Assembly: GCA_037447655.1 (NCBI GenBank)
Contig: JBBHKE010002895.1
Location: 62,001-126,000, forward strand
Direction of reading: 5' to 3'
Source of the DNA: Zygnema cylindricum
Lineage: Eukaryota; Streptophyta; Zygnematophyceae; Zygnematales; Zygnemataceae
Length of the DNA: 64,000 nt
Part shown: positions 3 through 64,000 of the stretch, one piece after another
Numbering within the stretch: the stretch's first letter is position 1
How the letters are laid out: every line of letters starts with the position of its first letter
Translations under genes and position numbers: made by a program
Notes under the pieces: model-generated
What the model was told of the DNA's origin: nothing
Database searches by the model: none
The model's input: the letters and a program-made list of their open reading frames with translations, nothing else

Positions 3-3000
3 TTTCGTGCAATCATTGATGCTCACTCTTCTACTGGGGGGTCATTTCTTGAGTTTCAACAGGCAACTTTGCTTATTAGAGGTTTCCTTAGTAGCATGAA
101 GGGTGTGTTTGTTCAATTAAAAAGTCATGATAAAGCTAGCTGGTCATTTCAGTTAGCATATATTCTTATATTGGAGGAAGAGACTAATACTTAACTCTTT
201 GAAGGAGAAGGAAAGGTTGAAGCTTTTTCCACATACTTTGACAAAAGAAATCAGATTAATCAGAACAAGAGTCAGTTTAGCCATAATTAGAATCAGTTTA
301 CTCAGTATAATCAGAGGCAGAATAGGCCATCTTCTACTACTTGCTTTTATTGTTTTGAGAAGGGTCATGGATATAGGTACAGTCTTAAGTTGAAAAAGGC
401 TAATGAGACAGGTTTATACAGGCCATGTTGGCAGCAAACCCAATATCACAAAGGCTTCTCTGGGAATCCTACCTGTAGAAATGCTCTTTTTTCAGCTTCT
501 ACAATTGATGCAGATGAGTCTTTAAGCTTCAATGAGACAAAGGATGCGGAATTATTTGCTATGGCGGCAGCCATCGAGGGTCCTAAGGATGCAGGATGGA
601 TCATGGGCACAGGAGCGTCTGCCCACAAATGTTGGATTAAGGCGGCTTTTACGAATCTGCAGCAAACATCTCCAAAGATTATTTACTATGCTTGTGGCAT
701 GAGTGTTCAAAGCTCAGCTCAGGGTGATGTATCTTTGATGGTAGATCTGGGGGGAAAGTTGGTAGAAAGAACCCTTCACAATGTTTTGTTTGTTCCATAC
801 TTTAAGAAAAATATTTTTCTACATCATTAGTGGAGAGCAAAGGCTTTGAAGTCATTCTGAAAGGAGGTAGACAGGTTGTTAACAAGAAAGGGAAAGTAGC
901 AGTAACAAGAAGTAGAGATGATAGCAAAATGTACCTGATGGACATGGCAAAATATAAAAAAAATGATGTTCTCTACTATAGTGTCCAATCGGATAATGAG
1001 TTCTGGCATAAAAGATTAGGATATATGAATTATGATAGCCTTAAAAAAATGGTGAATTCGGGAAAAGTTGAAGGAGTTTCTCTCAGTTACCATCCTATAA
1101 AATCATGTGTTGGTTGTTCACTTGGCAAGATCCACAAATTGCCATTTCCACAGGATATATACCACAGATCGGAGAGAGTTTTGCAGCTCATACATTTTGA
1201 TGTTCTCGGTCCTTCACAAGTGGCTTCGGTTGGAGGCGTCCACTATATGGTTACATTTACAGATGACTACTCGAGATATACCAAAGTTTACTTCATGCAA
1301 CATAAAAGTGAAGTGTTTACTCACTTCAAACACTACAAAACATGGGCGGAAAAGCTTCATGGAGTTCTAATCTTGGCGCTGAGATCGAAGAATGGGGAGA
1401 ATATACATCAAAGGATTTCGAAGAGTTTCTTCTTAAAGAAGGAATCAGTCACAATCTTACAATTCCATATACACCGGAGCAGAATGGTGTTTTTGAGAGA
1501 TTAAATAGGACAGTGACCGAAAGTGCTCGGTCCATGCTTGCAGATAAAATGCTAGATTTGAAATTCTGGGCTGAAGCACTTAACTACGCTGTTTATATTA
1601 AGAATAGAACTGCTTCTAGATCTATTAGCACTACACCTTTTGAGCTTTGGACAGGAGAAAAACCTGATGTTAATCACTTTAAGATATTTGGCAGCAAGTG
1701 TTTTATTCTAGATACTTCACAGGATAGATAGAAAATGGATACTAAAGGCTTACCATGAATTTTCATGGGACATGATGATAATGCAAAAGGTTATAAAGTT
1801 TTTGTATTTGAGAAACAAAAAGTGGTTATCTCTAGAAATATCTAGATTAAAGATGAGATGGATTCGGTTGACTCTTTTCAAGTGCCAGACAAACCGGAAA
1901 AGGAAAACTAAGAATATGTCATTTTTCACCACACGCAGCGGGTTTACTTTCCACAGCCAAAAAGGACTACTCTTCCTCCAGTTCCCTTAATGACTTCACA
2001 AGAGGCTTCACCATAAGTTCCACCTCAAGCGGAACAAATTGTTACACCACATGTCGCGGGTCAGCAAAGGCAGTCAAATCGGAGACTGCCGACAATTTCA
2101 GCCTCAGAATTTTCGTGGGGAAAGAGACCTAGCAGCAGCCTGCAAGTAAGCTCTCACTTTGCTTTTTCTGCAGCTACAGAGGAGCCTCTAACAATTCAGG
2201 AGGCCTTTACATCACCTGAGAGAAATCATTGGATCGAGGCGGCGAACGATGAAATGAAATCTATTATGGAGGCACAGACGTAGGAGCTGGTCGATCTTCC
2301 TCCAGGCATAAAAACCATCGCCATCAAATGGGTATTCAAGGTGAAGATGAACCCAGACAACACCATTGAAAGGTATAAGGCCAGACTAGTGGCCAACGGG
2401 TATAATCAAAAAGAAGGTATTGATTTTGAAGAAACCTTCTCTTCGGTTGTTAGATTTCCTACTTTCACAATTTTGCTAAGTCTAGCAGCTATAGAAAATA
2501 TGGAAATACAACAAATGGATGTTAAAACTGCTTTCTTGCATGGAGAATAAGAAGAGACCATCTACATGAAACAACCTGATATGTATGTAGAAAAAGGAAA
2601 GAAGGAATTGGTGTGCAAACTGATTAAATCATTGTATGGGCTGAAACAAGCCCCAAAACAATCAAATTTGAAGTTAGATGAGTTTTTGACTGGGCTAGGT
2701 TTTAATAGAATTAGCTCAGATCATTTTGTATATGTTCAACAAGGGGAGGATGGGATAATTTACATAGCTGTATATGTGGATGATCTATTATTGGTAAGTC
2801 ATTGGATGAAATAAACCGCATTAAAGCGGCTTTAAAGTCTAGGTTTAAGATGAAGAACATCGGAGAGGTCAAGTATATCTTAGGTATACAGATAGAAAGA
2901 GACAGAAACAAAAGGTTGTTTATGTTGACTTAGAAAAAAGCAATAAGTAACATGCTGGAAAGATTTGAAATGAAATATGTTAAATGATCTATAACTCCCA

Positions 3001-3755
3001 TGGAATTCAGGCAGAAATTGGAAGGAATTGAGTTAGACTCAAACATAATGGTTTGTGAGAATCTAGAGACAGGGGAGGAAGAGTTTATGGCTTCAAAGCT
3101 ATATACACAGGTAGTTGGAAGTCTTATATATTTTATGAATTGTACGAGACCCGACACTACAGCAGTTGTGGGAGTCCCGAGTAGAAGTATGGAGAATCCT
3201 AAAAAGGCAAATTGGGAAGCAACAAAAAGGGTGTTAAGATATCTTGTAGGTACTCGAAATCTCAAGCTTGTACTCGGAGAATGAGAGGTGAAAATACAGA
3301 CATGGATCGATGCTAGCTTTGGAGACATGCCAAGCCGGAAATCTACGACCGGCTTTGTTCTGCAGATTGGAGATAGAACTTGTTGTTGGAGTAGCAAATT
3401 AAAAAAGGTTACAGCTCAATCCACAATGGAGTCAGAATATATGGCAGCATATTCCGCCCTTAAGGAGCTCTTATGGGTCAAGTCCATTTTACAGGAACTT
3501 GGGTTTATGCAAACTAGTCCTCAAGCTATCTTGTGTGACAACCAGGCAGTCATTGCAATTGCCTCTAACCCCAGCCATCACTTTAAGAGCAAACACATGG
3601 ATGTTAGACTTCATTTTGTTAGAGAAAAAGTACTTGCAAAAGTCGTTAAACTGTGTTATTTACCGGATGAGAAGATGGTGGCTGACATGTTAACAAAAGC
3701 CTTTCCTGCTCCTAAGTTACAGTTTTGTAGAGATGTTATTGGACTAAGTGAGTAA
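3..3755 (+). pseudogene. copia gag-pol polyprotein, broken
   Basis: One degenerate frame runs from position 3 to 830 with stops at 192, about 288 and 828. It holds a CCHC-type knuckle at 342-383 in which the final Cys is Ser, and a protease site reading GTGAS at about 606-620 where copia proteases have D-S/T-G-A, so the catalytic Asp is gone. Integrase follows at 830-1730: the WHKRLGYMN and CVGC motifs, a first Asp in HFDVLGP, then a frame change near 1380 that also removes the second Asp (RSKNG for RSDNG), and the Glu region QNGVFERLN. Reverse transcriptase (about 2200-2810) keeps YVDDLL. After another frame change near 2800, RNase H at 3288-3755 keeps DASF, ESEYMA, CDNQAVI and ADMLTK. Stops also occur at 1729, 2281 and 2548. 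Confidence 0.92.
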
Positions 3756-6591: not shown

Positions 6592-9500
6592 TTAAGTGGA
6601 TTTAGCGCCTCGAGGTTTTCCCTCGAAAAGGTCGCTGAGGAGGGCCTCCAAATCCTCCGGCTGATATTTTATATATTTTTGGGGGTTGGGCTGTTTTCCG
6701 AAAGTATTTCCTTGTTCCAAACTCGCACTAAAGAAAAAACAGAAGAAAAAAAACAAAATTTGGGGATTTTTTTTGGGTTTTTTGGAGTTTTTTTTTGCGG
6801 TTTTTTGTGGATTTTAAGGGAGGAGGGAATGATATATGTATTTTTTGGGGATTGGGTTGTTTTCCATAAGTACTTCTATTTTGACACTTCAAAAAAAAAA
6901 AGGGTTTTCAAGGATTTTTCAATGCGAGAGTGACATAGTAAGAAAACGAAAAATGAAAAAATGAAAACCTAAAAAAAACGCCAAACAAAAAAAAACAGTA
7001 TTCTACCCGAATCTCGAAAAAACCGCTGATAAGCTACAAGCAAAATAAAAAGGCCCAAAAAAAAACCCCCAAAAAATACCCAAAAAAATCCCAAAAACAT
7101 CAAAAACATCCAAAAAAAATCCCAAAAAATACCCAAAAAAATCCCAAAAAATACCAAAAAACACCAAAAAAAAATGGAAACAGATTTAATACCTGAATCT
7201 GGAAACAAAGGAGCGATAAGCCGGAAGTAAGATTTCGGCGACTTGCAATTGGACGGCAGATCGGAGCTCTTGGTCGGGAATTGTCCACAAACATTGTCGG
7301 GCGTGGAGCTCCTCGAAATGGAAATTAAATTGTTTAAATCTAATAAATTAAATAAAATTAAACATTGTAGAGCTTGAGATTATATCATTCGAGATTAAAA
7401 AAAGGAAGAGAGGAGGAAAAAAGAGGTATCTAGGATTGTCCACAAACATTGTCGAGTGTGAAGTTCCAAAAAAAAAGATTACATTGTTTGAACCCAAAAA
7501 AAAATTAAAATAAAAACATTGTCGAGCAAGGTTAACTTTTTTCTATTTTTTTTAAATGTAACAAAAAAGGAGAGAGGAGAAAAAAAAAGGTTTTAGGTTT
7601 TGCTGAACATTTTTGTTTTTTCCGGGGAGCGTGAAGTTCTTTGAAATGGAAAGTACATCTAAAAGGAAAAAAAATGCAAGAAAATAAAGAAAAGACAGGA
7701 AAAATATCGAAAAGAAAAAGAAAGAGGGAAAAAAGAAGAAAAACACCTTTCTTTGACAGCTGTACGATTAATGGAACTTTCGCCGCTTCCCGTTGTCAGC
7801 CCTTGAGTACTCAAAAGTTGCATAACCTGCAAAAAAAACAAAGGAAAAAAAAGAGCCTAAGAAAAAAAAAGAAACCCCAAATAAAAACAGAAAAAATAAA
7901 ATATATATTTCATGTATATTAAAAAATATTTTTGTACCTTTTGCCAAGACTGTCTCTGATAGGCCGTAGCGTGTTGCTGTACAACTCTCCTCTGTCTCTG
8001 GAGCCAATCGTCTCCCAACATATCCTTCGCATCCGACCTGTTTTCAGTTTTTTTTTTTTTTTCTTTAGAAACATTATTCTCAAACATTCCTTCGAAACAA
8101 ACCTAGAATGAGCTAAAAATCTCTTAAAAAACATTAAAAAACGGCAATAAACAGCCAAAAACGATAAAAAAAATTGGTTAAAAAAACGCCGGGAGCCAAT
8201 CGTCTGCCAACATATCCTTCGCATCTAACCTGTTTTCATTATTTTTATTTTTTTTACTTCAGAAACATTAAAATATAAATTGCCTTCTAAAAGAGCTGAA
8301 AATAGCTGAAAAATCCTTAAAACATTTAATAAACAGCAAAAACTACGACTTTAGGCAACCAAAAATGGCAAAAAACGGTAAAAAACGACAAAAAGAGAGA
8401 GAGATAGAGGGAGAGAGGGGGAGAGAGAAGGAAAGAGAGAGAGAGAGAGAGAGAGAGAAATCGATCGCACCATATGCAAATTGACCAACAAAAATATTGT
8501 CTTAAAAAGAGTTTCAATATGAAGCTTCACTTTTTCCCTCCAATTTCCCTCCGATCAGATCAGATCATTGCGCACAGAGTTGGGAAAACAAAAACCGCAT
8601 TGAGAGAGAGAGGGAGAGAGAGAGAGAGAGAGACAGAGAGAGAGAGAAAGAGAAAACAAAAACAAAAAAAAACCCTTCCTTTCCCGACTCACTTTTTGAT
8701 CGACCGCACCATATAATGTACGTTGTTCATCAAAAATATTTGACTTAAAGCCGGTTCCTTGTAAAGTTTTGCCTTTCCCTCCAAATTTGTTTGCAAAACG
8801 TTTAAAATCCTTGCTGTCACAACGGCCAATCGCGGCTTTCCGGCGCCCGAAGACGAAGAATTGTTGTTTGTTTCTGCGAGCTTCTCTGATTCACCGAAAA
8901 GTTGCTGGAGAGTGGCGTGGTACCTGACAAGGAGAGAGGGAGAGGGAGAGGGAGAGGGGGGGAGGGAGAGAGCGAGAGAGGGAGGGAGGGAGAGAGAGAG
9001 AGAGAAGAGAGATAAAGAAGGTTTAGTGGGTACTCGAAATTATTCTCCAGCGTGGTTTTTTCCAATTCGCCGAAAAGTCGCGGTTTTTTCCGCCGGTCGA
9101 CGAAGACAAAGAATTGTTGTTTGTTTCTGCGATCTTTTTTCCAAATTGCCGAAGAGTTGCTGGAGGGGCGCGGCACCTAAAATAGTGTGGATGTATAAAT
9201 AGAAGGGAAAAGAGTGGAGGTTTTGAGATGATAGAGGGTTTAAGATAAAGAGGGATGAGCGAATATTTTTGGTCTACATTCGAAATTATTCTCGTTTTTA
9301 AAATGAGGTAACCAAAAACCCACAAATAAAAAAAGGCGAAAAAAAAGCAAAAAAACGGAGAGATAGAGGAAAAAAAATTCCGGCTCACTCTGAAGGAAAA
9401 AATTGACATAATTTATGACATAACTCGTCAAAGGACAGACTGCCAAGTTTTCCAACTGGGAAAAAATCACCAAAAAACAACCAAAAAAAGGCGAAAAAAA

Positions 9501-12001
9501 ACAGCGAAAAAAACCAAGAGGGAGAGAAGAAAAATTCTTAACTCACTCGTACCAATATTTGACACAATTTATGACATAACCAGTCAAAGGGCAGACCGAT
9601 TCGTTCTCAAACGGAAGAAAAACTCACAAAAAAAACCCAAAAAACACCCAAAAACCCACAAAAGAAAGCAAAAAAAAAAACAGCGAAAAAACCGAGAGGA
9701 AGAGGAAAAAAAATCTCAACTCACTCGAACAATAATTTGACTTAATTTATGACGTAACCAGTCAAAGGATCGACCGCCCCTGTCTTTGAGCGGAAAAAAA
9801 TAACCAAAAAACCGCAAAAAATAGGCTGAAAAAAACAGCGAAAAAACCGAGAGGTAGAGGAAAAAAAATCCTGACTTACTCGAACAAAAATTTGACGTAA
9901 TTTATGACATAACTCGTCAAAGGATGGACGGCTCCGTCTTCGACAGGCTGTCGAGAGGCGTCTTTATCGACCGCATCCTCGAATTCCGTAAAAGTCTCTC
10001 TCGCGGTTTGGGCAAGACGAGAGAGAAGACTTTTGGCAGCTTCTCGGGAGGGTAAACAAGCTTTTCCGGCGAAGACGGAGTCCACCTGTGAGGGGGGAGA
10101 GAGAGAGAGGGAGAGAGAGGAGAGAAAGAGGATGTTTCTTGTGATTTTACGGGATTTTTTGGGATTTTATTGGATTTTTTAGGTGTTTCGGGGGAAAGAG
10201 AGGGCAAGACGAGAGAGAAGACTTTTGGCAGCTTCTCGGGAGGGTAAACAGGCATTTCCGGCGAAAACTGAGTCCACCTGAGAGGGATAGGAGAGGGAGA
10301 GGATTTTTTTAGGGTTTTCTGGGATTTTTTTGGAAGTATTTTGGGGTTTTTCGGGAATTTTCTTGGGTTTTTTGGATTATTTTTGGCAGCTTCTCGGGAG
10401 GGTAAAGAAGTTTTCCCGGCCAAAACGGAATTCACCTGAAAGGGAGGAGAGAGAGAGGGATAGGAGAGGGAGAGGAGAGGGAGAGGATTTTTTTAGGGTT
10501 TCCTGGGATTTTTTTGGAAGTATTTTGGGGTTTTTTGGGAATTTTCTTGGATTTTTTTTGATTATTTTTGACAGCTTCTCGGGAGGGTAAAGAAGCTTTT
10601 CCGGCCAAAACGGAGTCCACCTGAGAGGGAGGAGAGGGAGCGGAAGAAAGAGGAGAGAGAGAGGATTTTTTTTGTGATTTTTTGGGACTTTTCTGGATTT
10701 TGTTGGGATTTTTTTTTTTTTTCTTTTGGGTTATTTTGGCAAACTTCTAGAGAGGGTAAAAGGTCTCTTCCGCAAACCGAGTCCACCTGAGAGGGAGGAG
10801 AGGGAGAGGAGAGGGAGAGGATTTTTTTGTTATTTTTTGGGATTTTTCTGGATTATTTCGGTATTCCAGGAGGGTATAGAAGCTCGATCGAACGTCAGCT
10901 AGATCAAAAGGGGAGAAGAGAGTGCGAGGGGGAGAGGGGGAGGGGGAGAGCGAGAGAAAGAGACAGAGATCGTCCAACAAATCAAACTCGCGAAAAATCC
11001 TGGAGAGTTTCGTACATATCCAAAAGGACAAAAAGTTTTCCGAAACTTTTCGCTTCTCGCGATTGCCTGCCAGAAAACTAAAAAAAACACTAAAAAAAAA
11101 GAAAAAAATCCCAAAAGAAATATACAAAAAAAACTCCCAAAAGAAATATACAAAAAAAAATCCCAAAAAAAACAAAAAGACTTACCTGGGGCATTAAATC
11201 CCGGAGAGTTTCGTACATATCCAAAAGGACGAAAAGTTTTTCTGGAGATTTTTTGCTTCTCGCGATAGCCTGTCCGAAACTGAAAAGCATGGAGGCACCG
11301 TTATCCGCTAAATCCGCAAAAGTTCTCTCTCTATGGGGGTCCAAACCGTCCAAAATCTCGTCACAAAGTTTTTTTTCGCCAGCGAAAAGTACGAGAAGCT
11401 GCCCCGAAAAAAAATATAGCAGGAATTTTAGGTTTCTTTTAGGTGATTTTTGGGTTTTTTGAAAATGTTTGGGGAGGGTTCTCTCTCTCACTCTCTTCCT
11501 CCTCGGAATCTTCCAAAATAATCAAATTCTCATACTTCATATCGTCGTATTTTTCCTCTCTTTGTATTCTCCACTTCTCCTCCGTCCCATTTTTCCTCCT
11601 CTCTCTCTCTATCTCTCTCTGATACTCAGTTACTCGACTCTTCAATAATGCAATTTCCTCCTTCAAATCCTCAATATTGTGCTTTTCTTTCTTCCATTCG
11701 ATTCTTTTCCGTACCAATTTCTCCTCCTTGAGACTAATTTCTTTCGCTTTTTCCTCCAAAAATCTTTTCTCTCTCTCAAGCTCTCCTCTCTCCCTCTCCA
11801 TCCCATTATTCCTCTCCTCTTTCCCTTCCACATTCAAAAAATTCAAATTTCTTTTTTCATTTTCCCTCGAAAAAGTTGTGATTTTCTCGTCAAGTTCTGA
11901 CCGCAAATCTGAAATTTTCTTCTGTGCCTCAATTTTCAGATCCATCTGTCCCCAAAAGAAAACAAATAAATAAATCAAAATAAGAGGGAAAAAAAAGTAG
12001 A

Positions 12002-12065
<64 letters not shown>

Positions 12066-12887
12066 GAATAAAAAGGGTAAAAGAGAGGAAAACTAATCCA
12101 CCCACAACCGCCTTTAAGGACTTCTCCCAAGTCTTGTCACATATCTCCCTGGGGATAGAGGGAGAGAGGGAGAGGAGAGATTGGGGGAGAGTTTAGAGAG
12201 GGGAAAAGGGACAGGGAGAGTGATGGCGCATGGGACTGAGGTGGCGAGAGACATTAGAGAGAGGGAGGAAAAGGGATACAGTAGGGGGAGAGGGAGCTGG
12301 CAGAAGGAGCTGAAGGAGATTGATAGCTGGCAATTTTTGAATGCTCGTGGAGCACTAGAAAACAAAAAAAAATCAAAAATTACCAAAAAGAATACCAGAA
12401 AATCCCAAAAAAAAATCGCAAAAAAAATTCTCAAAATAAATTCACAAAAAATCCTAAAAAATCCCAAAAAAATCCCAAAAATTCCCAGAAAAAATCCCAA
12501 AACATCCCATCTCCCTCTCTCTCCCTCCCCCCCACCTGTAGGTGGCCGTACACTGGGTGTTCCCCCCCCCGGTACAGAGCCTCTCCCCAATAATATGGAG
12601 CTTCTGGACGACAGCTGGCGGCAGGAGCTGCGGGAGGTTGACAGCTGGCGTGTTTTGGACTGGAGCGAATTCGCTGGCGGGCGCCAGCTGGCGCTTGTCG
12701 GTGGAGGAGGGATCAAGGGCACTAGAGGACGAATCGGAGGGGGAGGGGGAGGGGAGGGCGGAGGAGGGGAGGGAGGTGGAGGAGGTGGGGGTGGAGGGAG
12801 GAGGAGGAGGTTTTGGGGTTTCGGGGAGGCAGAGGGTGAGTTCCTCGGGGGAGATGGATTTACTGGGGAAAAAAATTTGGGGGAGAG

Positions 12888-12950
<63 letters not shown>

Positions 12951-14525
12951 AAAAAAAAAAAAAAAAATGTCTTCTAGTCGAGAGGTAGAACTTAAAAGAA
13001 AAAAAAAAGGGAAAAAAAAAAAAGCCAAAAAAAAAAAAAATAATGCAAAAAGAAAAGGATTGGAAAAAAGGGCAATGATAACAAAAACAATAATAATAAT
13101 CATAACAATAATAATAGTTGTAACAATAACAATAATAATAGAAACAATAATAACAATCATAATGACAATAATGAAAATAATAACAATTTTAATGAATAAT
13201 AATAATAAGTCTAATAACAAAAAAAAAAACAATAAGAACAAAAAGCCAAAAGAACGCCAGAAAAAGGCAGAAAATATGCAAAAAAAATGAGAAAAAAATG
13301 CAACAAAAAGCCAATGGAAAAAAGAAAAGGAACCCACCTGTGAGTAGTCAAAAGGGACCGGAAATCGTCTTCTAGTCGAGAAGTCGCCTCCTTCAGAAGA
13401 TCCCGGGCACTCTGAAGAGCCGCTTCCGACGCTCGAAACTGCCCGGAAAAAATAATCATTAGAAAAAATCATTAAAAGTATATATATATATATATGTGTG
13501 TATGTGTATATGTGTATATATGTGTATATATGTGTATATGTGTATATGTGTATATATGTGTATATATGTGTATATGTGTATATATGTGTATATGTGTATA
13601 TGTGTGTATGTGTATATGTGTATATATGTGTATATATGTGTATATGTGTATATATGTGTATATGTGTATATGTGTATATGTGTATATGTGTATATGTGTA
13701 TAGGTGTGTATATGTGTATATGTGTGTATATGTGTATATATGTGTATATATGTGTATATGTGTATATATGTATATATGTATATATGTGTATATGTGTATA
13801 TAGGTGTATATGTGTATATATGTGTATATGTGTATGTGTGTATATGTGTATATGTGTGTATATGTGTATATATGTGTATATATGTATATATGTGTATATG
13901 TGTATATGTGTATATGTGTGTATATGTGTATATATGTATATGTGTATATGTGTATATATGTGTATATGTGTGTATATATGTGTATATGTGTATATATGCA
14001 TATATGTGTATATATGTGTATATATGTATATATGTATATATGTGTATATATGTGTATATGTGTATATGTGTATATGTGTATGTGTATATGTGTATATGTG
14101 TATATGTGTATATGTGTATATGTGTATATGTGTATATGTGTATATGTGTATATGTGTATATGTGTATATGTGTATATGTGTATATGTGTATATGTGTATA
14201 TGTGTATATGTGTATATGTGTATATGTGTATATGTGTATATGTGTATATGTGTATATGTGTATATGTGTATATGTGTATATATGTGTATATATGTGTATG
14301 TATATATATGTATATATGTGTATATATGTGTGTTTATATATATACATATATGTACATGTATACACATATCTACATATATACACATATCTACATATATACA
14401 CATATATACACATATACACATATATACACATATCTACACATATACACATATACACATATCTACACATATACACATATACACATATATACACATACACATA
14501 TACACACATATACACATATACACAC

Positions 14526-14556
<31 letters not shown>

Positions 14557-14741
14557 TATACACATATACACATATACACACATATACACATATACACATA
14601 TACACACATATACACATACACATATACACATACACATATATACACATATATACACATATACACATATATACACATACATATATACACATATATACACACA
14701 TACATATATACATATATACATATATACACATATACATATAT

Positions 14742-14785
<44 letters not shown>

Positions 14786-17700
14786 GCATTACAAAAATCT
14801 AAAAAATACAAAAAATATCCACGCACAGTAAAAAAACCAGAAAAACCAAAAAAAGAAGAACTTCAAAAAGTAAACAAAAAAAATAAAAATAAAAGAAAAC
14901 TCGCAGCACACACACACAAACAACTCCAGGAGAGCCGGTTCGGAGGCTCGAAACTGCCCGAAAAAAAAGGGGGCCAAAAAAATACGATAAACATACATAA
15001 AAAAAGGGCCAGAAAAAATACAATTAACATAAAAAAAGAAAAATCACCCACACACACACACACATAAAACCCTGCCCCAAAAAAGCCCCAAAAAAAAACT
15101 CAAAAAAAACCAAAAAATAAATAAAAAAAGAAAACTAAAGTAAAACCCAAAAAAAACCCAAAAAAACCACAGAAAAACCAAAAAAAAACCCCCAAAAAAA
15201 AACCTAAAAAACCACCAAAAAACCGAAAAAATATAAAAAAAAACCAGAAAAAAAGGTAAAAAAATCAAATTAAAATAAATATACCTGTCTATTTTTTAAG
15301 AAGAATTCAACCGCTTTTTGGAGTTTATCCACCGCCCTCAAATAGCTCTCGAGATCTCTTTTCGGACCCTCGGAAATACGGTTACTCTCCTGTATCGGAG
15401 GGGTTAAGCGGGGGTAGAGGAGAGAAATGAGGGGTAGAGCGAGAAGTGAGGGGTAAAGGGAGAGAAGTGAGGGGTAAAGGGAGAGAAGTGAGGAGTAGAG
15501 GGAGAGAAGCGAGGGGTAGAGGGAGACAAGTGAGGGGTGGGGAGAGAGAAGTGAGGGGTGGAGGGAGAGAAGTGAGGGGTGGAGGGAGAGAAGTGAGGGG
15601 TAGAGGGAGAGAAGTGAGGGGTAGAGGGAGAGAAGTGAGGGGTAGAGGGAGAGAAGTGAGACAAAATTTTGGCTTATTTTAAGCAGACGAAAGACGTGCA
15701 CACCACATTTTTTCTGGATATTTTCCAATTTTATTTTAACCCTTTTTATTAATTTATACATTTGTTTATTGTGGGAAGGGGGGAGAGAGTTCCTGACATC
15801 AGAAAGGAGGAGAAATGCATTCAAAAAAAAAAAATCTAAAAACCACCTCTAAAAAAAAGAAAAAGAAACGAAAAACAACAAAAGACAACAACCCCCAAAA
15901 AAAAAAAAACACAAAAAACAAATAAATATTTACTTGTCACACTGACATCATCTTCTGCGTCATTCATGCACCGATGCTGACATCATCCTATGGTCAATGC
16001 TGATGTCATCCTCCATGCTATGCTGACATCATCTTAACAATTGACATTATGCTGACGTCATCTTAGACATCATGCTGACCTCGTCTGACATCATCCTACA
16101 AGATATGCCAACATCTCCCTACATACTCACCCCGTGCTGACATCATCTTACACATCATGCTGACGTCAGTGTACACTATCTATCTGCCGATGCTGATGTC
16201 ATCCTCCATGATTTGCTGACATCACCCTAAATACTGACATCGTGCTGACATCACCCTTTTTACAACTTTACACCCTGGCCTCATCCCACCCATCGTATCC
16301 TAGACATCCTCCTGTAATCATCCTCTTTGTCCCCGCTGACGTCATCCTACGGATGACGACGAAATCATCTTTCAACTGATGCTGACGTCATCCTAGGGCT
16401 GATGCTGCTGACATCATCTCATGCGATGGCGGAAGATGACATCATCTCATCCCGCCGGAGCTTCTGCTGACGCGACCTACAGGTGATATGCTGACGTCAT
16501 TACACAGCTGATGCTGACGTCAGCAATGTTGTCCTCACCTGTCTGGGAACGTCGAACTGGCTGAGGACCTCCTCCGCCTGCTTAAGCGTGCGATCGATGT
16601 TCTCATGGGCCTTCCGGAAGGCGTGAGTACGGATCTGTACGGAATTGTACGGAATTGTAAGGTTGCGTTCGGGATATGGTTTTTTGTATTGTTTTTAAAG
16701 AGTTTTACGTTGAGATATTGTACGAATTTGCACAGATCTAAGGTTTTATCAGGATTGTACGGATTTGGGTTGTTTTGGAATTGTAGAGAGTAGGGATTTT
16801 TAGGATTGGAACCTTTGTAAAAATTAGGGTTTTTTAGGATTCTACGGATTTAGGGGTTTTTAAGATTGTTTTAGGGATTTTCAATAGTATTAAGGTTTAG
16901 GATCCGGAATGTACGGACAATCACATGTAGCACAGATTGTACGGATTATGCAGGTAATAAATGGAATGTACGGATTGAAAATATTGTACGGAAATGCTCT
17001 TGAAATACGGAGTGTACGGCTTATTAAGATTGTACGGAAATCGTAAGGGAAGTACAGATTTACAGAAGGAAACAGTAAATATGAACATTTGAGATGTGGA
17101 CATTGTTTGATTCATGTGTGAACTGTCTATTTAATTCATACTTTAATTGTTCGATTGTTTGGTTTTGTAATTTTTTTGGTTCATTATTTGATACATTGTT
17201 TGGTTTATAGTTTTGATTCATTATTTTGATTCATTGTTTTGATCCAAGTTTTTTTTTTGTTTGTTTGATTCGAGGTATAATTCGATTCCTTTTTTAATCA
17301 ATAATTCGATTCATTTTTTCATCCATTGTTGGATGGATTGTTTGGTTCATTGCTCCCTAACTTCCAATGCAAAGAGAGAGGGGAAAGAGTAGAGAGAGAG
17401 AGAGAGGGAGAGAAAGAGAGAGAGAGAGGGAAGGAGAGAGAGAGAGAGGGAAGGAGAGAGAGAGAGAGGGAAGGAGAGAGAGAGGGAAGGAGAGAGAGAG
17501 AGCGAGGGAAGGAGAGAGAGAGAGAACTCATTGTTATTTTCATTGTTTGACTCATTGTTCCATTCATTATCTTTTTCATTATTTCATTCATTTGATCCAT
17601 CTTTCAATTCATTGTCCACTCCATTTCTTGATTCATAGTTGTTCAATCCAATATTAGAAACATTGTCGGATTATCAGCTTGTTTGACTCACAGTTTGATT

Positions 17701-18173
17701 GTTTTTTAGGGTTTTTGTGGGTTATTTAGGGTTTTTAAGGGTTTTCAGAGTTTTTTAGGGTTTTTTTTAATCATGGTTCAATTGTTAGTTTCATAAAGTT
17801 ATAAAGATTGATAAAGATTGCAATGAACGTAAAAATTGTCTGATTCACAAATATTGTAAAGATTGTTCAATTTCAGTGCGTAACTGTAATTACTCGCTTC
17901 ATAAAGACTCTAAAGATTTATAAAGATTTAGAGACATTGTAAAAAATTGTTCAATATTAGTGTGAATAAAAAATAGTAAAACATAGTTCGTATTTAGTGT
18001 GTGTATATATATATATATATACCTACCTGTGTGGGCCTCATGGCCGCCTCGAGAGTACTGAGTCGGTCGTCGAAGCTTCCGAGAATCTGCGCCATTTGCT
18101 CACTCGCTCTCTGTCCCTCCCTCAGCCCCCCTCTCAAGGCTGCCGCCGCCTCCGCCAGTCTTTCCACGCCCAT
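6592..18173 (-). CDS. EXO70: EXO70 exocyst complex subunit, 13 coding exons, complete
   Basis: EXO70 subunits tether secretory vesicles to the plasma membrane as part of the octameric exocyst and bind phosphoinositides through the C-terminal domain. Coding exons in order: 18027-18173, 16539-16634, 15285-15389, 13338-13438, 12536-12862, 12106-12148, 11186-11398, 9880-10085, 8693-8923, 7938-8037, 7747-7826, 7193-7339, 6592-6727. All introns are GT-AG, phases agree at every junction, and the sum is 1932 bp (643 aa plus stop), close to plant EXO70A length. Family landmarks: ILGSFDDRLSTLEAAMRPTQ (exon 1), RTHAFRKAHENID (2), RDLESYL (3), LLFAGE-like LVLFAGEKKLCDEI and SPEKLFVLLDMYE (7), HPLTSYVINYVKFLFEY (8/9), IFLMNNVHYMV (9), DMLGDDW (10), VPDQEL-like IPDQEL and LLPAYRSF (12), PQKYIKY and DLFEGK (13). 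The start is the ATG at 18171-18173; an upstream TTG reading gives only four extra residues. Exon 5 carries a Pro/Ser-rich linker encoded by low-complexity DNA. About 35 residues normally found before LFAGE seem absent between exons 6 and 7. Confidence 0.95.
6830..6892 (-). pseudogene. Copy of the 5' edge of EXO70 exon 13
   Basis: In intron 12 the minus strand reads GGAAAACAACCCAATCCCC, nearly the same as exon 13 (6592-6727), preceded by an AAG acceptor-like site. The frame is broken after about 20 codons. It lies on the intron side of the true acceptor. Confidence 0.7.
7007..7042 (-). pseudogene. Copy of the 3' edge of EXO70 exon 12 with donor
   Basis: The minus strand reads GCTTATCAGCGGTTTTTTCG and ends GATTCGG before GTAGAA, mirroring the true exon end (GCTTATCGCTCC ... 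AGATTCAG before GTATTA at 7191-7193). It lies downstream of the true donor inside intron 12. Confidence 0.65.
7440..7660 (-). pseudogene. Two or three copies of the 5' edge of EXO70 exon 12
   Basis: Upstream of the true exon 12 acceptor (7339/7340) the intron holds fragments at about 7443-7496 and 7615-7660 that contain TTCAAACAATGTAAT, CGACAATGTTTGTGGACAAT and TTTCAAAGAACTTCACGC on the minus strand, plus a short CATTGTCGAGCAAGG piece near 7517-7532. All match pieces of the first 60 bases of exon 12. None keeps an open frame equivalent to the real exon. Confidence 0.65.
8188..8229 (-). pseudogene. Copy of the 5' edge of EXO70 exon 10
   Basis: An acceptor (AACAG before GT) and the coding start GATGCGAAGGATATGTTGG of exon 10 (7938-8037) are repeated here about 190 bases upstream of the true acceptor; the match ends after GATTGGCTCC. 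The GGAGACGAT of the real exon is GCAGACGAT here. Confidence 0.8.
9055..9176 (-). pseudogene. Copy of the 5' half of EXO70 exon 9
   Basis: The minus strand contains CTCCAGCAACTCTTCGG and CGCAGAAACAAACAACAATT, matching the first half of exon 9 (8693-8923), after an acceptor-like TAG. A second, weaker internal copy follows at about 9030-9085 (CTTTTCGGCGAATTGGAAAA). The frame differs from the true exon after about 35 codons. Confidence 0.78.
9389..9790 (-). repeat. Three tandem copies of the 3' edge of EXO70 exon 8, each with a donor
   Basis: Donor-like junctions at 9389, 9547 and 9725 repeat the true exon 8 donor at 9880, with spacings of 158, 178 and 155 bases. Each is preceded on the minus strand by a version of the coding segment for LTSYVINYVKF (for example GACTGGTTATGTCATAAATT-like text at 9560-9600). 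Each copy is followed by A-rich intron sequence with an AGCGAAAAAACCGAGAG-like element, so the repeat unit is exon edge plus intron start. Confidence 0.85.
10190..10890 (-). repeat. Four clear and one weak tandem copy of the 5' edge of EXO70 exon 8, each with an acceptor
   Basis: The true exon 8 acceptor is at 10085/10086. The same acceptor plus GTGGACTCCGT-like start recurs with upper ends at 10277, 10435, 10620 and 10786 (spacings 192, 158, 185 and 166 bases), and a degenerate one lies at about 10862-10890. The copies encode variants of DSVFAGKACLPSREAAK, for example DSVLAGKASLPSREAVK and NSVLAGKTSLPSREAAK, then run into GGGATTTTTTGG-type intron sequence. The copy at 10203-10277 extends furthest, through SLLSRLA. 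Confidence 0.9.
10960..11062 (-). pseudogene. Copy of the 3' edge of EXO70 exon 7
   Basis: The minus strand holds GCAATCGCGAGAAGC and AAACTTTTTGTCCTTTTGG, matching the segment of exon 7 that encodes AIARS and KLFVLLDMYETL. The two halves are in different frames, so it is a broken copy. It lies downstream of the true donor (11186). Confidence 0.85.
12001..12063. repeat. GA dinucleotide microsatellite in EXO70 intron 6
   Basis: Nearly pure (GA)n interrupted once by a T. Similar GA tracts occur at 8392-8458, 8600-8650, 8930-9012 and 12892-12944 in neighbouring introns and next to exon 5. Confidence 0.9.
12967..12992 (-). pseudogene. Fragment of EXO70 exon 4
   Basis: The plus strand reads TCTTCTAGTCGAGAGGTAG, matching TCTTCTAGTCGAGAAGTCG inside exon 4 (13338-13438). 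Unlike the other shards it carries no splice junction. Confidence 0.6.
13078..13222. repeat. AATAAC/AATAAT trinucleotide-rich tract in EXO70 intron 4
   Basis: About 145 bases of imperfect AAT/AAC units. Its translated frames are Ile/Asn-rich and not credible proteins. Confidence 0.85.
13478..14777. repeat. 1.3-kb TG/TA then CA/TA microsatellite with inverted halves (EXO70 intron 3)
   Basis: From 13478 to about 14340 the plus strand is built from GTGTATAT and GTATATGT units, including a very regular TATGTG block at 14060-14280. From about 14340 to 14777 it is built from ATACACAT units, the reverse complement of the first half. The switch is at the palindromic segment near 14342-14362 (ATATGTACATGTAT). 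The tract could fold into a hairpin of several hundred base pairs. Confidence 0.95.
14925..14957 (-). pseudogene. Copy of the 5' edge of EXO70 exon 4 with acceptor
   Basis: The minus strand reads CGGGCAG, then TTTCGAGCCTCCGAACCGG, matching the acceptor and first codons of exon 4 (CGGGCAG then TTTCGAGCGTCGGAAGCGG at 13438). It sits about 1.5 kb upstream of the true acceptor, on the far side of the TG/TA microsatellite. Confidence 0.85.
15420..15662. repeat. 21-bp minisatellite (EXO70 intron 2)
   Basis: About 11 units of GAGAAGTGAGGGGTAGAGGGA with small changes (GGTGGAGG, GGTAAAGG). It lies directly upstream of the exon 3 acceptor. Confidence 0.92.
15940..16535. repeat. Array of TGACRTCATC motifs (EXO70 intron 2)
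   Basis: More than twenty near-copies of GCTGACATCATC or GCTGACGTCATC occur at irregular spacings in about 600 bases up to the exon 2 donor. TGACGTCA is the core bound by bZIP (CREB/TGA-type) proteins; whether any are functional is unknown. Confidence 0.85.
17368..17526. repeat. GA-rich minisatellite (EXO70 intron 1)
   Basis: Imperfect GAGAGAGGGAAGGA units of about 20-24 bases repeated six to seven times. Confidence 0.88.
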
Positions 18174-23913: not shown

Positions 23914-26213
23914 CTAATCTATTTTTTGCTTTAGTCCACACTTCTCCCTACAAAATATCAATTTGGGAGAAAGAACCGGCTTGGTCATCATATCTGCTAC
24001 CATCTCCCCGTTTGGTCTATTGTCAAAACTGATGATTGTATTCTCTAATTTTTCTTAAACAAAGCTTAACCTGATGTCCATATGCTTTGCTTTGAAGTGA
24101 TGTTTTGGATTTCGCGCGATTGCAATTGTAGCCTAATTATCACAAAATATTTTATACACTCCATTTTTCATATAACCAAATTCTTGAAACAATTATTTCA
24201 CCCACATCAATTCTTTCACAACAACACTAGAGACAATTTATTAAGCCTCCATGGTGGACTGAGCAATCACTTTTTGTTGTTTGTTGCGCAAACAGCAAGC
24301 CTTATTCCTAATATAACACATACCCATATGTCCACCTCCTCATTGGAACATCCCTATAACTGGCATATCAGTGTTATCCAATCCCAAATGCAACCATAAA
24401 TCTTTAGTTTGTATCAAGTACCTCATTACCCTCTTGGCTGCTTCCCAATCTCTCCCCCTATGGTAACTCAAACTCCAACTCAATACTCCTACAGTTGCCG
24501 CTATATCGTGCTTGGTATTGTACCATACAATAGAATAAGCTACCGACAACATGTTTGTAAAAAATATTTCTCATAAATTCTCTTTCATCTGGTCTTATCT
24601 CTGTTGGGATATTGGGCCAATCGGCGTCTGCCAAAATCGCGCCGTTTATGTGTTTGTTCGGTTGTACTTTATTTTATATATGTTTCAGTACAGTACTTTC
24701 GGTACTAGTTGTTTCTAGTGAATCGGACGTCTATCGAGTTGGTTCAATATTGGCAAAGAGCGACGCGATTCGCGTCACTGGAAATATTCAATGTGTACGC
24801 CGAAGCGTCAGTACAATTTGTACGGCCGCCCCTGTGGCGATCCCGTCACATTTTGGTTTGTTTACATAGAGAGAATTCTGGAAGAGAAGGGTAGCTTGAG
24901 GTAGCTCAGGAGCTGTAGACTATGGCCCGCGTACCTCTGCGTGTACCTGGTCATCTTTAGTGAAGGGATTATGCTTTGTATTGGTTCTAGAGATATTTTT
25001 TCTTTGTTTATGTGGAGGGTATTTAGTGGGAGTGTGTGTGTGAGGAAAGTATCACTGAATTTGTATTTTTGGAGGGGAAAAAGCCTCCGGTGAAATATAT
25101 GATATTTTGCCTGATTTCTTTGTTGTCCTTATCTTGCTTCCGCTGTGGTGTATCTTATCTTTTTATCAATCTCATCATCAAGTATTACAACTCCTCCTTC
25201 CGAGCTCCTCTCATTTCCCCTTATTTAAATCCATTGGAGTCGTACAACTATTTGTTTTATCCATTTAATTTTTTTTCGAGCATATTTCCGATTGCCTCTT
25301 TTTGGGTTAGTCTAATTATTTTCTTCCCTCTATCTCTCTCCATCTGAATTCCCAAAATAAATTTTGCTTGCCCCAAATCCCTCATTTCGAATCTAGTCAT
25401 TAGATCTTTTTTGAGTTTATTAATTTTCTCTATTGATTTACTAAGAACAAGCAAATTATGAACATAAATTGCAATGAAAATTATACCTTCCTCATCCTCG
25501 AATAGGTAGATGGAATGATCTGAACTAATTTGAACATATCCCAAATTCGTCAAAAACTTGTCCAATTTCTTGTTTCTTTGATTAGGAGCGTGTTCTAGTC
25601 CATAAAGAGACTTCATCAGTCTGCACACCTTGCTTTCTCCCCCCTTATCCACAAACCCTTCCGGCTGTCGCATGAAGATTTTTTCTTCAAATTCTCCGTG
25701 TAAGAAGGTTGTTTTTATATCCATCTGGTGTACTTCCATGTCTTCCGCTGCCGCCAAACTGAGAAGAATTTGGATGAAGGGAAACCTGACAACCGAAGCA
25801 AAGGTCTCCTCGTAATCAACCCTTTCCTTCTGTGTGTAACCTTTGGCCACTAATCTTGCGTTGTATCGCTTGATGGTGTTGTTTGGATCGAGTTTCAACT
25901 TAAATACCCACTTGCATCCAATTGGTTTTTTGACCGGTGGACATCCCAATAGATTCTATGTATTTGCTTCCATAATTGATGCCATTTCATCATTAATGGC
26001 TGTTACACATCTACTATTTTCCGGACTATTAATTGCCCCCAAGTTAGTTTTAAGTTCACTCAAATGTGACAGATTCGTTACCTTGTTGTTAACTTGTCTC
26101 TCTTGAAGCCTCTTGTTGCTTCTTCTCCTTCCTTCAAAATCTGATACCGGAATGTAGTGTAATCTCGGATTTTTTCGAATAATTTCATCTTCTCCCCTAT
26201 CCACTGATGCCAT
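23914..26213 (-). pseudogene. copia reverse transcriptase/RNase H, broken
   Basis: Minus-strand frames give the C-terminal part of pol: WVFKLKLDPN, DYEETFASVVRF, MDIKTTFLHGEF and SLYGLEHAP, then the polymerase site reading YVHNLL where YVDDLL is expected, so both catalytic Asp residues are lost. A frame change near 25265 leads to TTPMDLNKG, the solo LTR (24602-25168) interrupts the frame, then the coding region resumes with PDEREFM and WEAAKRVMRYL. RNase H ends with AKHMDIRL and MVADMMTK, with a stop at 23914. Confidence 0.9.
24602..25168 (+). repeat. Solo LTR with ATCTC target duplication inside copia pol
   Basis: The 567-bp insert starts TGTTGGGATATTGGGCC and ends TTTTTATCA, with ATCTC on both sides (24597-24601 and 25169-25173). 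Removing it and one ATCTC joins the pol frame, giving ILDDEIRPDEREFM on the minus strand. It is unrelated in sequence to the solo LTR at 21039, so it represents a second LTR family. It is younger than the copia it interrupts. Confidence 0.9.
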
Positions 26214-58893: not shown

Positions 58894-60012
58894 AAAAAAA
58901 AAAAACGCAGGATATATTAAAATGCACGATGGTAAACCATCTGAGTCCGGGGGTACAAAAGGGGTGGCATGGCCGAAACTGAAAAACTACCACCAGGGGA
59001 ATAAAATAACAGCACAACAAAAACAAAAACAAAAAGAAAACAACAACCAGGAAAATAAAAGCCCCCAAACTCAAAATGAAAAGCACGACAATTGACAAAG
59101 CCAGAACTACAACCCCAACCCCAACCTAATTAAATAACTACGAAAAGCAACCCCGTAAGTCCCCCCATCCCGGGGGAGCACGTTGAGGGAGTTCCGGAAC
59201 CCGGCGACGATCCAGAGCCGCAAGAGCCGATCGGAGGAGAATAGAAGCTTACACTCGTTGTAAAGCCACAGATAAGCGTTGACGATAAAAAGAAGTAAGG
59301 ACAGAAGGAGGAGGGCTCCCTAGTCCTCTGCGCTCGAAAGCACGTCGAGCGCAAGTACGGACAAACTCGTCCATTGCAACACCCAGACAACCAAAGATCT
59401 CGACCGCCATCGGAATAAAGTCATCCATAGGGTCCCGGTGGGCATAATCACGCTCCTTCGCCTTAGCGGCATCACGAGCCGCCACCCCAACATGTCGAGC
59501 CGCTTGACCAACAATTGTAGCTGAAGTAGGGTTCACCAAAACAATATCACCGAAGATGCGACGGGCACCATCAATTAGAACAACATCGATCCGACGCTTG
59601 GGAATAATATGAGAAACTAAAGGCCTACCATAGAAAACGGCTACTTTTGAACTATGAGTTGAACAACTGTGTCGTGCAAGCATATTGTTAAGGTTTGACA
59701 ATTTGATTCAAGCTTCACATCGACCGAAATAACTCTAAGGCGTCATTCTACATGGGATTCCAATTGCGTTATAGTTGGCGCCATGACATTGGTTCACAGT
59801 AACGTACACTATTACAGGATTGAGCGGTACGGTAAATCCAACAACAGACTACAGAATAACGGGAAATGGACCTTCCATGGAGAAGCACAAACTTCAAAGC
59901 CTAAACACTGGACATATTCACCATCGCTCAGCTCTTGTGGTTCCGAAAATAGTCAGCGGGCACCGATGCGTCGTCAGATAGAAAAGATCCGACGACGCTC
60001 GCGTCTTCTTCC
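58894..60012 (-). mobile_element. LINE-type 3' fragment, minus strand, copy A
   Basis: The frame 59701-59249 contains DVVLIDGARRIFGDIVLV, ARHVGVAARDAAKAKERDY and MAVEIFGCLGVAMDEF, then a premature stop after LQRV where the copy at 4795 reads on. The D..GDIVLV spacing recalls the restriction-like endonuclease at the end of some LINE ORF2 proteins, by memory only. The 3' region ends CCTGCG plus 12 T on the minus strand (A run at 58894-58905). Upstream of the ORF about 310 bases with stops in every frame are also shared with copy B. Confidence 0.62.
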
Positions 60013-62888: not shown

Positions 62889-64000
62889 AAAAAAATCACG
62901 CAGGATATATTAAAATGCACAATGGTAAACCATTTGAGTCCAGGGGTACAAAAGGGGTGGCATGGCCGAAACTGAAAAACTACCAGCAGGGGAATAAAAT
63001 AACAGCACAACAAAAATAAAAACAAAAAGAAAACAACAACCAGGAAAATAAAAGCACCCAAAATCAAAATGAAAAGCACGACAAATGACAAAGCCAAAAC
63101 TACAACCCCAACCCCAACCTAATTAAATAACTACGAAAAGCAACCCCGTAAGTCGCCCCATCCCGGGGGAGCACGTTGAGGGAGTTCCAGAACCCGGCGA
63201 CGATCGATAGCTGCAACAGCCGATCGGAGGAGAATAGAAGCGTGCACTCGTTGTAAAGCCACAGATAAGCGTTGACGATAAAAAGAAGTAAGGATCAAAG
63301 GAGGAGGGCTCCCTGGTCCTCGCCGCTCGAAAGCACGTCGAGCGCAAGTACAGAGAAACTCGTCCATTGCAACACCCAACAACCAAAGATCTCGACCGCC
63401 ATCGGAATAAAGTCATCCATAGGGTCCCGGTGGGCATAATCACGCTCCTTCGCCTTAGCGGCATCACGAGCCGCCACCCCAACATGTCGAGCCGCTTGAC
63501 CAACAATTGTAGCTGAAGTAGGGTTCACCAAAACAATATCACCGAAGATGCGACGGGCACCATCAATTAGAACAACATCGATCCGACGCTTGGGAATAAT
63601 ATGAGAAACTAAAGGCCTACCATAGAAAACGGCTACTTTTGAACTATGAGTTGAACAACTGTGTCGTGCAAGCATATTGTTAAGGTTTGACAATTTGATT
63701 CAAGCTTCACATCGACCGAAATAACTCTAAGGCGTCATTCTACATGGGATTCCAATTGCGTTATAGTTGGCGCCATGACATTGGTTCACAGTAACGTACA
63801 CTATTACAGGATTGAGCGGTACGGTAAATCCAACAACAGACTACAGAATAACGGGAAATGGACCTTCCATGGAGAAGCACAAACTTCAAAGCCTAAACAC
63901 TGGACATATTCACCATCGCTCAGCTCTTGTGGTTCCGAAAATAGTCAGCGGGCACCGATGCGTCGTCAGATAGAAAAGATCCGACGACGCTCGCGTCTTC
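62889..64000 (-). mobile_element. LINE-type 3' fragment, minus strand, copy B (cut by window end)
   Basis: Nearly identical to 58906-60007 over its whole visible length of about 1.1 kb. Differences include a one-base loss in the CTGGGTGTTGC region, which shifts the frame between FGC and VAMDEF, and a codon change that removes the premature stop of copy A. The 3' flank differs from copy A, with seven A residues then a TCACGCAGG start. Confidence 0.62.

Follow-up and report, generated by a model that had tools for sequence, protein, structure and literature searches.

Short tandem duplications that run across an intron-exon boundary have been described in amphioxus, where they are called mirages, in the globin genes BflGb6 and BflGb9 and in the genes for Adh3, troponin C and PGBD5 (PMC3087553, PMC3902484). 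These accounts describe minisatellite-like units at both 5' and 3' boundaries, together with length differences between alleles, concerted evolution within clusters and regular splicing as judged by reverse transcription polymerase chain reaction; the globin units are 150-160 bp long, and many of them, but not all, keep the AG or GT (PMC3087553). Comparable structures are reported here for an EXO70A-type gene of the alga Zygnema cylindricum, in a window of 64,000 nucleotides (contig C2173, positions 62001-126000; the genome searched comprised 352.8 Mb in 2689 contigs). Introns of this gene contain copies of the edges of neighboring exons, hereafter called orphans, which are very probably of the mirage type, i.e., short direct tandem duplications of a unit that starts in the exon and ends in the adjacent intron, or the reverse.

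The likeness to the amphioxus accounts extends to tandem units that span the boundary, to the involvement of both sides, to the size of the globin units and to the partial retention of AG/GT. The differences are that amphioxus is a cephalochordate and that BflGb6 units are 81-100% identical (PMC3087553), whereas the exon parts of the algal orphans are 73-95% identical; the algal case, in turn, belongs to a streptophyte, has both sides of one exon expanded, covers three gene families and is described from genome sequence. Direct tandem duplication is also described in Drosophila (PMC2891723) and in the potato RdRp gene, where the duplicated segment includes the parental intron-exon structure (PMC4974935), but in these accounts it creates a new, used intron, whereas in EXO70 an existing intron lengthens and the modeled coding sequence is unaffected. 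Human segmental duplications, as reported, likewise carry minisatellite units as internal tandem repeats at exon-intron boundaries that alter gene structure, but these average about 30 bp, often yield alternative transcripts and belong to recent primate paralogues (PMC2812944). Thus, the type of structure is already known, and what is new is the distant lineage and the recurrence in several genes; among open-licence papers in PubMed Central, a collection outside of which most subscription journals lie, the potato gene was the only earlier plant report of junction duplication among the papers listed.

The gene was modeled from homologues, the requirement for a single frame and exon-by-exon tblastn, and consists of the following parts, all on the minus strand:

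6592..18173, EXO70A-type gene with 13 modeled exons
18173-18027, exon 1
16634-16539, exon 2
15389-15285, exon 3
13438-13338, exon 4
12862-12536, exon 5
12148-12109, exon 6, donor uncertain
11398-11186, exon 7
10085-9880, exon 8
8923-8693, exon 9
8037-7938, exon 10
7826-7747, exon 11
7339-7193, exon 12
6727-6592, exon 13

All internal borders are AG/GT, and the exons form a single open frame with one terminal stop. Scoring of 8000 candidates gave 914 protein matches to the model; among the 120 matches listed, the top identity was 58%, to a EukProt transcriptome entry, while an entry labeled Mesen1 (read as Mesotaenium) had 49% and land plants had 43-49%.

Each exon without its flanks was aligned locally to every intron of the gene, with a score of at least 30 as the cutoff. 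In the adjacent intron, 11 of 24 exon sides had a copy on the same strand but only 2 of 24 on the opposite one, and in the non-adjacent introns only 4 of 132 comparisons reached the cutoff on the same strand, all of them with the low-complexity exon 5, as did 4 of 132 on the opposite strand. The same-strand copies flank exons 4, 8 and 9 on both sides, exons 5 and 7 downstream, and exons 10, 12 and 13 upstream. All 11 score above every one of 100 dinucleotide shuffles of their own intron, and all 11 derive from the exon half that faces the intron, upstream copies from the 5' half and downstream copies from the 3' half. The initial annotation had listed edge copies beside seven exons (4, 7, 8, 9, 10, 12 and 13), on the same strand and on the intron side; every one of them was recovered by intron-to-exon alignment and by self-comparison with BLAST, and exon 5 is an addition. 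Its span for the pattern, 6830..15000, holds exons 4-12 and the exon-13 copy, with exon 13 itself just outside. The copies, all on the minus strand, are:

14931..14967, orphan acceptor-edge copy of exon 4, about 1.5 kb from the exon, AG kept (self-BLAST, alignment)
12965..12986, short copy of exon-4 bases 54-77 (of 101), downstream and off the edge (score 34, exceeding all 100 shuffles)
12295..12339, copy of part of exon 5 (bases 205-250 of 327), on the downstream side and off the edge (self-BLAST, alignment, shuffles)
10995..11084, orphan from the 3' part of exon 7 (bases 112-203 of 213), offset by 201 bp and ending before the donor (self-BLAST, alignment)
10202..10865, four orphan acceptor-edge copies of exon 8 (exon 5' part, AG and intron end), a tandem array upstream of the exon (self-BLAST E values 1e-134 to 1e-13)
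9309..9800, three orphan donor-edge copies of exon 8, a tandem array downstream of the exon with a period of about 155-158 bp (self-comparison, alignment)
9078..9178, orphan acceptor-edge copy of exon 9, offset 253 bp, AG kept (self-BLAST, alignment)
8460..8546, orphan from the 3' part of exon 9 (bases 136-225 of 231), with a CT-rich repeat at the donor position (score 42)
8192..8383, orphan acceptor-edge copy of exon 10, offset 192 bp, AG kept (exon 35/38 and intron 114/142 identical)
7435..7600, orphan acceptor-edge copy of exon 12, offset 155 bp, AG changed to GG (self-BLAST, alignment)
6830..6876, orphan from the 5' part of exon 13, offset by 166 bp and lacking the acceptor (self-BLAST, alignment)

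Exon 8 is the extreme case, with five acceptor-side and four donor-side units, the true ones included, arranged head to tail, each of which holds exon sequence, a splice site and 73-102 aligned intron bases. The exon parts of its acceptor orphans are identical to the exon at 72/76, 48/55, 51/55 and 44/50 positions, and the donor orphans read GTGAG where the true site reads GTAAG. Across the gene, offsets in the local families are 155, 158, 166, 192, 201, 253 and 318 bp, exon 8 also having multiples of them; most copies are tandem duplications that run from the exon into the intron at offsets of about 155-320 bp. A tandem duplication across a junction necessarily leaves its orphan on the same strand and on the intron side, so the strand and side rule is not a separate fact. 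Directly visible in the alignments are copies that are local, on the same strand, head to tail at exon 8 and mostly composed of exon plus intron sequence: 23 of the 25 aligned orphans have 10-146 intron bases beside the exon bases. The earlier statement that nearly all copies include the boundary was too strong; by a hand count from the alignments, 11 of 16 orphan copies in the gene span it, and the five that do not are those of exon 4 (downstream), exon 5, exon 7 (donor side, ending 10 bases before the edge), exon 9 (donor side, ending 6 bases before it) and exon 13. The gene nevertheless has the traits of a mirage, as the boundary lies within the repeat unit and both donor and acceptor sides are affected. 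A possible weak third exon-12 copy, at about 7600-7660, was judged by eye from the alignment only. In intron 3, between exon 4 and its orphan acceptor copy, lies a 1.3 kb microsatellite (13479-14777, TATATG/TACACA), which changes from TATATGTG to TATACACA repeats, its halves being roughly inverted.

A DNA search of the genome with positions 9300-10900, in which 40 of 101 first-look candidates were scored and simple repeats were skipped, gave 97 outside matches, none of which, by their coordinates, covers more than 7 bases of an orphan exon piece; they fall in simple-sequence parts of the introns. As far as this search sees, the local origin of the exon-8 copies is supported, and the placement in the adjacent intron and on the same strand, together with the search, rules out transposed or processed exon copies, as had been proposed at the outset. 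The proposed route of intron growth also found support in some introns: by copy ranges listed by hand from self-BLAST and alignments, the share of orphans is 69% in intron 7, 62% in intron 8, 43% in intron 9 and 41% in intron 11, against 0-12% in each of the remaining eight introns and 20% of all intron bases. Intron growth by copying is therefore supported, as judged from the copies themselves rather than from a shorter ancestral intron.

The pattern recurs in other genes of this genome, which the initial annotation had named as a place to look. Copies on the same strand were found at 3 of 40 exon sides in EXO70-related loci (five of the six fetched, L023 being left out), at 5 of 60 sides in chaperonin TCP-1 exons (loci were obtained for 30 of 63 hits, including five near-identical duplicates of others) and at 3 of 122 sides in kinesin exons (61 of 75 hits tested), with none on the opposite strand in any set; pooled, this gives 11/222 against 0/222. 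Once strand is corrected for, all 11 again come from the half of the exon that faces the intron. Most exon sides elsewhere are without copies, and the EXO70 gene of the window is an outlier. When the EXO70 genes were compared, 13 of 13 orphans were closer to their own exon (0.73-0.93) than to the exons of paralogues (0.36-0.77), and thus arose after the paralogues split or have since been homogenized. The same applies to the EXO70 gene on contig C2306, four orphans of which match their own exon at 0.74-0.92 and the exon of the window gene at 0.52-0.62, so that the same junctions were either duplicated independently or homogenized within each gene.

These results extend mirage-like duplication from lancelets to an algal relative of the land plants, in three gene families of one genome. 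It can now be asked in a single organism how much of intron length is owed to short tandem duplication, and how the splicing machinery passes over intact copies of its real sites that lie 150-700 bases away. They also carry a warning for gene prediction, where orphan edges may pass for real exon ends.

These structures could have been produced by events that are ordinary in a genome rich in repeats, namely slippage during replication, template switching or unequal exchange. After a duplication, one copy would remain joined to the body of the exon, while the other, with its own splice site, would be stranded in the intron; further rounds, in which copies perhaps also exchanged sequence, would then build arrays such as those around exon 8 and lengthen the intron. 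Such duplications may persist because they leave the mRNA unaltered while the exon-joined site remains in use, and the orphan sites would then decay neutrally, ignored by the spliceosome, perhaps for want of a partner site across a complete exon. No breakpoint feature that discriminates among slippage, template switching and unequal exchange was found, and no systematic test of breakpoints was made.

Several observations weigh against this reading. The duplication mechanism itself was not seen; the downstream exon-4 copy and the exon-5 copy stop short of the edge, and exon 4 is separated from its two copies by 0.4 and 1.5 kb. Five pairs of haplotigs or duplicates, none of which carries an orphan, show no tandem difference at any junction, and genome searches revealed neither an allele of differing copy number nor a second EXO70 allele. 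Finally, 8 of the 9 local tandem families in the EXO70 gene touch exons where random placement predicts 3.3 (P 0.002), which exceeds what blind duplication would give, although exon-bearing copies are easier to detect.

The last point bears on a special case of mirage-type duplication, one that does not exclude the general reading, in which junctions are specific hot spots and an engine of intron growth; nucleosome edges, transcription- or splicing-coupled breaks and polypyrimidine tracts are candidate causes. The EXO70 gene has 9 local tandem families on the same strand within its 12 kb, and the remaining 72 kb of an 84 kb region around it has 16. Placement was assessed for the EXO70 gene, L019, part of L020, 18 kinesin loci and 24 non-redundant chaperonin loci, with L021-L024 left out. 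In this set, 16 of 35 families touch an exon core, against a random expectation of 9.1 when placements over a whole exon or inside one are excluded (P 0.006), but of 12.3 when they are not (P 0.10). The excess in EXO70 favors hot spots, as does the fact that paralogues have separate copies at the exon-7 donor, the exon-8 acceptor and the exon-8 donor, junctions that are copied in the window gene too. Outside EXO70, however, only 8 of 26 families reach an exon where 5.8 are expected (P 0.20), so that no general hot spot emerges, and the method favors exon-bearing copies, since exons escape low-complexity masking and only one partner of such a pair diverges freely. Intron-only tandem families exist as well, in L019 and in intron 2 of the window gene:

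15970..16428, no strand assigned, intron-2 minisatellite-like array without exon sequence, an intron-only tandem duplication (self-BLAST)

Outside the EXO70 gene the counts thus give no significant support to junctions as targets, and because of the easier detection of exon-bearing copies junction targeting is not claimed; hot spots appear improbable, though they are the best placed of the alternatives. Just as doubtful is the wider proposal that junctions are duplication hot spots in this algal lineage, that mirage formation, repeated at the same junctions and independent in each paralogue, is a main route of intron growth, and that the spliceosome must ignore a genome-wide load of intact decoys. 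In L019, an EXO70-related locus on contig C2130, intron-only units of about 95 bp form an array near a donor-edge copy, within the intron that follows the counterpart of exon 8 (3.8-5.0 kb in gene orientation), so that junction and intron-only duplication grade into each other.

Another possibility is that orphan sites are kept for a function in recursive splicing, splice-site competition or regulated intron retention, which we consider very unlikely. The exon-8 orphans would seem to favor it, as AG is kept in 4/4 and GT in 3/3, and exons 8-11 each start at an AG|GT, which could restore a donor. Among the 25 orphans aligned across the junction, however, the splice dinucleotide is kept in 17, lost in 6 and not reached in 2; this set leaves out the downstream copies of exons 4 and 5, a kinesin acceptor copy on contig C1093 and the L019 copy, and counts the exon-13 orphan, whose acceptor is missing from its copy, among the lost. 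The exon parts of the orphans are 84.9% identical to their exons (1147/1351), so that by our arithmetic about 72% retention is expected without selection (84.9% squared), against the 17/23 or 74% observed. Retention near the neutral expectation gives no sign of selection for or against the orphan sites, and selection on them was rejected. Furthermore, splicing at any one of the seven orphan sites of exon 8 would, as computed from the model, lead to a premature stop; a stop follows exon 8 directly, so that a 2-base misplacement of the third donor orphan is immaterial. Of the many decoy splice sites first proposed, the existence of intact ones stands, while a role for them does not follow. Normal splicing probably ignores the orphan sites, as is reported for amphioxus globin and Adh3 (PMC3087553).

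Somewhat less likely still is that the introns were newly gained through duplication of an AGGT-bearing exon segment, as in the Rogers model, the copies being leftovers of intron birth. This too involves tandem duplication and would yield the same strand and side rule, but such an intron consists of duplicated exon sequence bounded by duplicated AGGT, whereas 23/25 aligned copies carry intron sequence beside the exon (as many as 146 aligned bases), which means that the intron came before the copies; nor does the model predict one-sided arrays of 3-4 copies. An assembly artefact from misjoined or unresolved repeats is the least likely of all: the sequence is an assembly rich in microsatellites, but the exon parts of the copies differ by 5-27%, the same geometry is found in other genes on other contigs, and the window has a single run of N (10 bases at 50944), which lies outside the gene.

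The contig pairs C315/C2488 and C1878/C2437 are about 98.3-98.5% identical over 3 kb and are probably unmerged haplotypes of a heterozygous genome; the presumed haplotigs differ by about 1.7%. In the EXO70 gene model, a segment of about 33 residues between exons 6 and 7 (RLGVEKL...LRIA), present in 5/5 aligned EXO70 relatives, had no exon in the window by tblastn with three relatives, which makes the donor of exon 6 uncertain. Where that exon is expected (11399-12108), the minus strand has an open frame at about 11.44-11.95 kb, preceded by ACAG, whose roughly 170 residues are charged and coiled-coil-like. Elsewhere in the window, long open frames at 300-3750, 25260-25955 and 41.6-51 kb were taken by eye, with no family search, for genes of copia-type retroelements or DDE-type transposases, and one reading frame is present twice in direct orientation, at 59252-59707 and 63298-63699, with about 4 kb between the two.

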